Positions 45,352 to 45,560 of a stretch of 64,000 bases of DNA are shown here, piece after piece; position 1 is the first letter of the stretch, and each line of letters starts with the position of its first letter. Below the pieces are notes generated by a model. The model made no database searches. It saw only the letters and a list, made by a program, of their open reading frames with translations, and was not told where the DNA came from. A program made the position numbers and the translations under genes. The stretch lies in assembly GCF_964340395.1 (NCBI RefSeq), contig NC_135552.1:24151181-24215180 (forward strand), written 5' to 3'. This DNA comes from Glandiceps talaboti (lineage: Eukaryota > Hemichordata > Enteropneusta > Spengelidae).

Positions 45352-45401
45352 AATCAAAGTAGGTTGGTTGGAACTTGGTTGGTTGGAACTTGAGGTGCTT
45401 G

Positions 45402-45444
45402 GTTGTAACTCCGAGTTTCACGCTCAATGCGTTCATCAGACAAC
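45402..45444 (-). ncRNA. Hammerhead ribozyme motif (minus-strand copy)
   Basis: This is the exact inverted copy of the plus-strand motif at 45457-45499. On the minus strand it reads stem I GTTGT, core CTGATGA, stem II ACGC/GCGT with loop ATTGA, core GAAA, a very short stem III, and the closing ACAAC of stem I. All positions known to be essential for hammerhead cleavage are present. Confidence 0.75.
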
Positions 45445-45456
45445 TGTCTATCAACT

Positions 45457-45499
45457 GTTGTCTGATGAACGCATTGAGCGTGAAACTCGGAGTTACAAC
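45457..45499 (+). ncRNA. Hammerhead ribozyme motif (plus-strand copy), type I with tiny stem III
   Basis: The order of parts is: stem I 5' strand GTTGT (45457-45461); core CTGATGA (45462-45468); stem II ACGC (45469-45472), loop ATTGA, GCGT (45478-45481); core GAAA (45482-45485); stem III of about 3 bp (CT/AG plus the A15.1-U16.1 pair, loop CGG); cleavage nucleotide U at 45494; stem I 3' strand ACAAC (45495-45499), a perfect complement. Type I hammerheads with minimal stem III are known from Penelope-like elements and animal retrozymes, where they usually act as dimers. No reverse transcriptase or tandem monomer array is visible here. Confidence 0.78.
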
Positions 45500-45560
45500 C
45501 AAGCACCTCAAGTTCCAACCAACCTACTTTGATTATTCCCGCCCTGCTTACCCAAGCATC

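Follow-up and report, generated by a model that had tools for sequence, protein, structure and literature searches.

The 5' leaders of Penelope-like elements (PLEs), also termed 'pLTRs', are inverted, most often head to head, and one of them may carry an additional tail; the paper describing this arrangement also contains a proposal of self-priming for PLEs (PMC3846280). There, the Pen families of Adineta vaga combine an ORF of the reverse transcriptase (RT) plus GIY-YIG type with inverted leaders that flank it, a tail on one leader, and AT-rich targets with duplications of 8-10 bp. A purified PLE protein, predicted to dimerise, cuts and extends both DNA strands and initiates reverse transcription internally at two positions, one at each border of the tail (PMC11167929). 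In Poseidon of Anolis carolinensis (PAc), the hammerhead ribozyme overlaps the start of the ORF, which begins at stem II, the target is AT-rich, the start site shares no homology with the DNA that is cut, and the two strands do not differ in start site in vitro. In the same study, ribozyme cleavage required the protein, insertion was independent of the ribozyme, and the steps after first-strand synthesis were left for validation (PMC11167929).

Minimal type I hammerheads number in the thousands in animal genomes. They are mostly scattered through non-coding DNA, and their role is called a mystery (PMC7761336). The animal non-LTR retrozymes, as outlined in PMC7229834, carry a type I hammerhead in small units, which form direct tandem repeats of about 150-450 bp and are expressed as circular RNAs.

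The locus described here lies in a window of 64,000 nt (the whole stretch of DNA analysed) of the genome of Glandiceps talaboti (590 Mb, 47 contigs). It would represent an ORF-less, head-to-head pair of PLE 5' leaders, left by a single insertion event into a TA microsatellite. Compared with the Pen families (PMC3846280), its family has a comparable ORF (of the RT type with a putative GIY-YIG domain), the inverted leaders with one tail and the AT-rich targets (with an 11-bp duplication here), whereas most sampled pairs lack an ORF, every typed pair bears the tail on just one of its halves, and these can be unequal beyond what self-priming explains. As in PAc, the hammerhead overlaps the ORF start, and two sites bound the tail; in contrast to PAc, each typed head-to-head pair combines one end of each type, UA follows both sites in the RNA of a related family (F2), and the targets are mostly TA repeats. 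The tiny stem III, the thousands of copies and their frequent non-coding location are shared with the dispersed minimal hammerheads, whose origin is not stated in the accessible text of PMC7761336, whereas the units here are leader-sized putative PLE cDNAs with defined ends.

The preliminary description of this DNA had held that no standard element looks like this; the inverted, mostly head-to-head PLE leaders with an optional tail in the available portion of PMC3846280 contradict this view. The type I hammerhead in a small unit is shared with the retrozymes, and a U-U mismatch at the base of stem II, frequent in the present family, is also found in one axolotl motif in the available part of PMC7229834. 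However, the units analysed here are mostly inverted pairs or single leaders of an autonomous PLE. The window copy is an inverted pair and direct repeats are few in the sample (e.g. L051, L057 and L130), so it was not classified as a retrozyme.

With simple repeats masked, the palindrome was the top-scoring inverted repeat of the window. Its arms (45372-45447 and 45454-45529) are 96% complementary over 76 nt in the inverted-repeat comparison and its outer ends (45353-45377 and 45509-45533) are 100% complementary, which bears out the near-perfect inverted repeat reported earlier. The arms differ by an additional 15-bp copy of GGTTGGTTGGAACTT, absent from the right arm and forming a private duplication within the left half (45362-45392), and by a single base close to the tip. 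The left half (45353..45448, minus strand) appears to be a leader cDNA that reaches an internal site designated S and has no tail; its S end is common to coding copies L155, L156 and L158, and its 5' end is GACAGTTGT (45440-45448, minus strand). An 8-nt junction filler (45449..45456, unstranded) separates it from the right half (45457..45594, plus strand), a putative leader cDNA that reaches a second internal site, L, whose end is common to coding copies L154 and L157. The right half includes a 58-nt tail spanning sites S to L (45537..45594, plus strand).

TA microsatellites form the left (45208..45352, adjoining the S end of the left half) and right (45595..45655) target sides, both unstranded, in agreement with the earlier account; the same repeat lies on both sides in 34 of 40 family copies. 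The extent given previously (45352..45536) holds for the inverted repeat itself (45353-45536), but its right border does not stand, as the tail belongs to the feature. Next to the right TA tract lies a separate tail-only piece of the second PLE family, F2, extending from about S to L (45656..45714, minus strand).

Each half carries a hammerhead motif, at 45402..45444 (minus strand; core CTGATGA from 45439 downward, predicted cleavage after 45407) and at 45457..45499 (plus strand). The latter is composed of stem I (45457-45461/45495-45499), the core (45462-45468), stem II (45469-45472/45478-45481) and stem III (45485-45487/45491-45493), with predicted cleavage after 45494. The ATG of its core (45465..45467, plus strand) is the ORF start codon in coding relatives belonging to F2. 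The motif has the type I features, namely the core CUGANGA...GAAA, three stems and H at the cleavage site; stem III comprises 3 bp with the loop CGG. The first pair of hammerhead stem II is usually G-C; it is A-U in the window motif. All hammerhead parts named in the preliminary description were found on both strands, and the two motifs were the sole matches of the pattern scan in the window. Since the two arms are copies of each other, they count as one observation, not two.

The motif with these stems is not expected to arise by chance: in 1,430 Mb of simulated Markov sequence matching the window in composition, no occurrence was found when Watson-Crick stems of at least 5 (I), 4 (II) and 3 bp (III) were demanded, and looser stem settings gave 1 and 15 occurrences in the same amount of sequence. 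Two results stand against it. The Rfam search, set earlier as the refuting test, reported no hammerhead family for the window, for 501 bases or for the 63-base motif, even at E<=10, and the isolated 43-nt RNA favours an alternative fold (-9.3 compared to -3.8 kcal/mol for the hammerhead). The miRNA-like Rfam matches in the window are due to the hairpin or to simple repeats. The Rfam test appears to be of low power, because it also reported nothing at a candidate hammerhead-like site in the viral contig IMGVR_UViG_3300027790_000081 (L002:7051-7130), which has CTGATGA, GAAACTC...GAGTC and a long possible stem I pairing. The family-level evidence (genome matches, coding copies and covariation) outweighs both the Rfam miss and the alternative fold. 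In searches beyond this genome, the exact 27-mer had no match in viral contigs, the degenerate core matched three viral contigs and nothing in the genome-contig database, and the phage search gave only two short matches of no weight.

Covariation was examined in 11 variants, hand-picked for an intact stem I. Among them, 90% of cells were paired, and 5 of the 12 pairs, distributed over all three helices, were altered on both sides. None of 500 shuffles equalled the observed values in four measures and one of 500 did in a fifth, while pairing fell to 27-47% when the partners were slid out of register. The first stem II pair was U-U in 10 of the 11 variants. The stem III strand ACTCNGAGT is self-complementary, a property that double hammerheads need (PMC6466107). 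The 230 matches included 63 distinct 43-mers, many of them cut within stem I, and many copies therefore cannot form the full ribozyme. The ribozyme motif thus appears to have been kept in the family and subsequently damaged in many copies. The core also contains the start codon, so a coding constraint may account for part of its conservation; self-cleavage by the motif is a prediction.

The palindrome is not a lone oddity but a member of a large family. The pattern CTGANGA-N13-GAAACTCNGAGTNAC had 2,529 exact matches genome-wide, and the reversed pattern had none; relaxing stem III raised the count only to 2,649. The palindrome query gave 833 first-look candidates in the genome, of which 40 were scored, and 39 fetched copies together with the window constituted the set of family F1 (40 copies). 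All 40 carried a tail on only one of their two sides, and 35 of their 40 junctions were distinct. The preliminary description had called for a count of other TA-flanked copies and of their orientation: the 40 F1 copies were head to head, flanked on both sides by TA in 30 cases and by TACA in 4, with the flanks of the remaining 6 being other or untyped. A sample chosen independently of pairing was taken from the first 100 matches among those listed, all on contig 1, and comprised 58 new loci with 96 matches plus L013, L038 and L040.

The hammerhead units are 5' leaders of PLEs. Upstream, some contig-1 loci continue as coding sequence in which YRDDG and YIG motifs occur, and the protein of one of them (L083) had 108 scored relatives among 1,857 genome candidates. 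Both arrangements of PLE leader repeats were found, namely an array with a tandem unit of 2,526 bp, in which the reading frame continues from the tail into the ORF, and inverted pairs with one tail. The minimal hammerhead lies at the leader/ORF start, as in PLEs, with the core ATG as the ORF start and with covariation in the stems.

An F2 copy, L112, has an intact 771-aa ORF starting at the ATG of the ribozyme core. When its predicted structure (pLDDT 69, pTM 0.45) was compared with PDB folds, telomerase RTs were found at ranks 1, 2, 4-7 and 9 and the bacterial DRT9 at ranks 3 and 8, so the predicted fold points to an RT related to telomerase. The F1 coding copies share 61-62% sequence identity with part of this ORF. 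Pfam gave no match in the PLE ORF, and a PDB sequence search with it returned nearly only prion chains (best E 0.0087), taken as chance. A putative C-terminal GIY-YIG domain is suggested by a YIG-type motif seen by eye in the ORF and by PF01541 in one relative, from Solemya velum, at 51% identity. Coding parents of the window family were located at C11:18.39 (L154, L155), C20:14.80 (L156, L157) and C9:11.00 (L158), and their ribozyme and S or L ends are identical to those of the window family. Further relatives (L159-L161) have a variant ribozyme with the core CCGANGA in place of CTGANGA.

The aligned units stop at one of two sites, S (core +69) or L (core +133), with the tandem copy L117 as reference; L-ended units contain the PLE tail and S-ended units lack it. 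The opposite ends cluster close to the core. In subfamily F2b, the match to the leader extends 1-11 nt beyond the 5' side of the core in 40 of 47 halves, the small values being inflated by short chance matches, and 47 nt or more in 7, with none in between; in F1, all 80 halves match it exactly for 10 nt or less. With one mismatch allowed, the halves of L046 extend to about 15 and 31 nt upstream. The core is preceded by a TATA-like box whose start lies 37 nt (F1) or 39 nt (F2b) before it, i.e. about 30 nt before the unit 5' ends, and we infer from these positions that the clustered ends mark the 5' end of the RNA. The junctions between F1 halves contain filler in 28 of 40 cases, are blunt in 5 and show an overlap of 1-3 nt in 7, while the junctions of pairs with long arms have an overlap of 0-4 nt (10 pairs) or a filler of 10-13 nt (3 pairs).

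Several observations concern the two sites themselves. Pieces consisting only of a tail, including that at 45656-45714 and places in L012-L108, make up 17 of 72 F2 tails (those without upstream leader), and 14 of these 17 rows (13 loci, as L043 and L102 are one locus) start no more than about 8 nt from S, thereby resembling cDNAs begun at L and halted at S. In the F2 tandem copy L117, UA follows both initiation sites in the RNA and UACAUAC follows L, a sequence with which primers ending in TA or TACA repeats could base-pair. In the four F1 copies located in TACA repeats (L027, L029, L045 and L047), TACA, not TGTA, lies outward of the L end.

The two types of end are combined in a strict manner. 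The unpaired halves of the contig-1 sample comprised 17 S, 16 L and 9 untyped ends (15 S and 14 L without the four halves of L083 and L096), while its 35 candidate head-to-head pairs included 31 typed at both ends, and all 31 consisted of one S and one L half (S+L). With independent ends, the chance of this outcome would be about 5e-10. The pairs outside the 31 were L061, L073 and L077, whose partner was of another family or unrecognised, and L040, one of the 40 F1 copies, whose S end adjoins non-repeat DNA and was left untyped by the script. The F1 copies were S+L in 40 of 40 cases; four loci (L013, L038 and the F1 pairs of L093 and L102) are common to the 31 and the 40.

Pairs with long arms provide a separate test, because their truncation points differ. 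Twenty were examined, and all 17 that could be typed were S+L: L083 and L096 (over the script's 400-nt limit and therefore counted here), C8, C23, C15:6.94, C10:9.99, C4:8.38, C18:13.23, L110, L119, L123, L132, L135, L133/L134, L121/L122, C11:18.39 and C20:14.80. The remaining three were L120/L151, whose tail is split by a (TA)46 tract, L130/L153 and C18:21.51; the set leaves out other opposed matches (e.g. C7:9.22) and L114, L115 and L128. Direct tandems break the rule (L, then S in L051; S, then S in L057; L, then L in L130). The strict S+L rule and the stand-alone pairs seem to be new, and no statement of this rule or of a two-primer model was found in the literature covered, most subscription papers being outside its scope.

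We consider it likely that the units are PLE leaders and that two reverse transcriptions, one from S and one from L, were joined in one event. A more specific version, in which the ends of one staggered break prime the same RNA at S and at L, each once, is put forward more tentatively, at slightly less than an even chance. From the sequences we infer strand breaks, priming, an RNA 5' end and a single RNA template, in the following course. The first nucleotide of the PLE RNA would lie 5-10 nt ahead of the hammerhead core and about 30 nt past the TATA-like box, and the ORF would begin at the AUG within the ribozyme core. The PLE protein would cut the target on both strands, and each 3' end of the target DNA would prime reverse transcription internally on the RNA, one at L and the other at S. 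Both cDNAs would extend to, or towards, the RNA 5' end, where end joining with short overlaps or filler would unite them. The TA tracts look like the insertion target, because copies in TACA repeats show TACA on both sides (4 of 4 typed on both sides) and because a related pair outside long repeats (in C20), the sole pair examined in this respect, has a target site duplication. This 11-bp duplication, CTAGTTATATA, is present at both outer ends (14 bp with the shared element letters counted), and the two halves of the C20 pair were therefore inserted together.

One RNA with two primers predicts that each site is used once and that the halves agree, and the halves do match. The arms of F1 differ by 0.6 nt within and 2.9 nt between copies (35 copies of equal length), with 55 shared and 21 private variants. 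In F2, the 13-mers of the two halves are identical in 24 of 27 pairs, compared to 0.43 expected from independent draws, and one or two bases apart in the other three; over 66 nt, the mean difference is 1.3 within and 2.9 between pairs. Both halves were probably copied from one RNA, although two RNAs from one locus are a possible source. Several observations weigh against the explanation as a whole: two F2 pairs differ at 10 and 11 of the 66 positions, S ends could be produced later by loss of the tail, which lies between TA at the S site and a flanking TA tract, TA expansion at S is seen in L120, L046 extends beyond the supposed RNA 5' end, and the S+L rule is not derivable from PMC11167929, where the start sites did not differ between strands in vitro.

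A single strand that turns back on itself at its end and serves as primer for its own copying would also yield a head-to-head palindrome, with the near-identical arms and, in some copies, the near-perfect centres that are observed; five pairs with a longer L half (L094, L096, L110, C23 and C4) are compatible with this. That one side always ends at S is not among the predictions of such self-priming. In seven pairs (L083, L119, L123, L132, L135, L124/L152 and C15:6.94) the S half extends farther 5' and only the L half has the tail, so each half contains sequence absent from the other and neither templated the other, unless a tail was lost later. Half lengths were too close or unclear in L059, L121/L122, C8, C10, L133/L134, C11 and C20. 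We regard self-priming as unlikely, and an origin from pairs that multiply ready-made as slightly less likely still. The latter, with palindrome centres revised afterwards by breakage and repair to give the varied junctions, draws on the instability of long palindromes at their centre and accounts for the matching arms and the constant S+L layout of the short F1 and F2 pairs. However, the 17 long-arm S+L pairs differ in their coding truncation points, which means that the layout arose repeatedly.

Neighbouring units parted by TA tracts (e.g. L093 and L100) exist, as two independent PLE insertions into one TA repeat would leave them, but the 5' junctions of the listed pairs are not TA tracts, S+S and L+L combinations would be expected beside the 31 of 31 S+L pairs, and the C20 pair shares one target duplication; this explanation is very improbable. 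The same low probability is assigned to a MITE or similar inverted repeat of DNA-transposon type, with a hammerhead present by chance or as a folding switch. The near-perfect palindrome with TA on both sides, the failure of Rfam to see the motif and the full hairpin, whose folding energy is -147 kcal/mol and whose formation would mask the ribozyme, agree with it, but the one-sided tail in 40 of 40 copies, the covariation in the hammerhead stems and the RT-coding relatives with shared ends contradict it. With asymmetric ends and with RT encoded by the coding relatives found, the element was not assigned to the MITEs or inverted-repeat DNA transposons. The folding switch proposed in the preliminary description likewise finds no support, the pair being apparently an insertion product without the element's TATA-like box, since it stops near the supposed 5' end of the RNA; the proposed tiny-stem-III, Penelope-like hammerhead in two head-to-head copies between TA tracts is upheld by the family evidence.

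Joint insertion of cDNAs begun at S and at L would have consequences beyond this locus. The many similar head-to-head scars in the Glandiceps talaboti genome hint at the route of PLE insertion, and the strict S+L rule, the matching halves and the one shared target duplication allow a sharp, checkable statement about it; in the pairs where fold-back self-priming is testable, the S+L evidence argues against it. A possible origin of the dispersed minimal hammerheads is also suggested, i.e. leader cDNAs that carry the ribozyme along and are often cut into it. If one RNA was indeed used by two primers, the tail-only pieces (L to S) would be cDNAs begun at L that met the complex at S, and stray animal hammerheads would be products of the front ends of PLE mRNAs rather than independent ribozyme genes.

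Elsewhere, the window contains genes with HEPN_DZIP3 and NHL domains and another short inverted-repeat element (16904-17026; 27-bp arms, 69-nt gap), which adjoins (TA)83 at 17029-17194. An end resembling that of this element (ATCATGAACCATACAGTTCT) adjoins a TA tract in L100. As far as seen, the element has no relation to PLEs and may be a relic of a DNA transposon. Hairpins with imperfect pairing (self-complementarity of about 71-77%) were found at 33026-33195, 59172-59298 and 368-460, and long tandem arrays at 29042-30012 (47-bp units) and 39189-40773 (59-bp and about 49-bp units).
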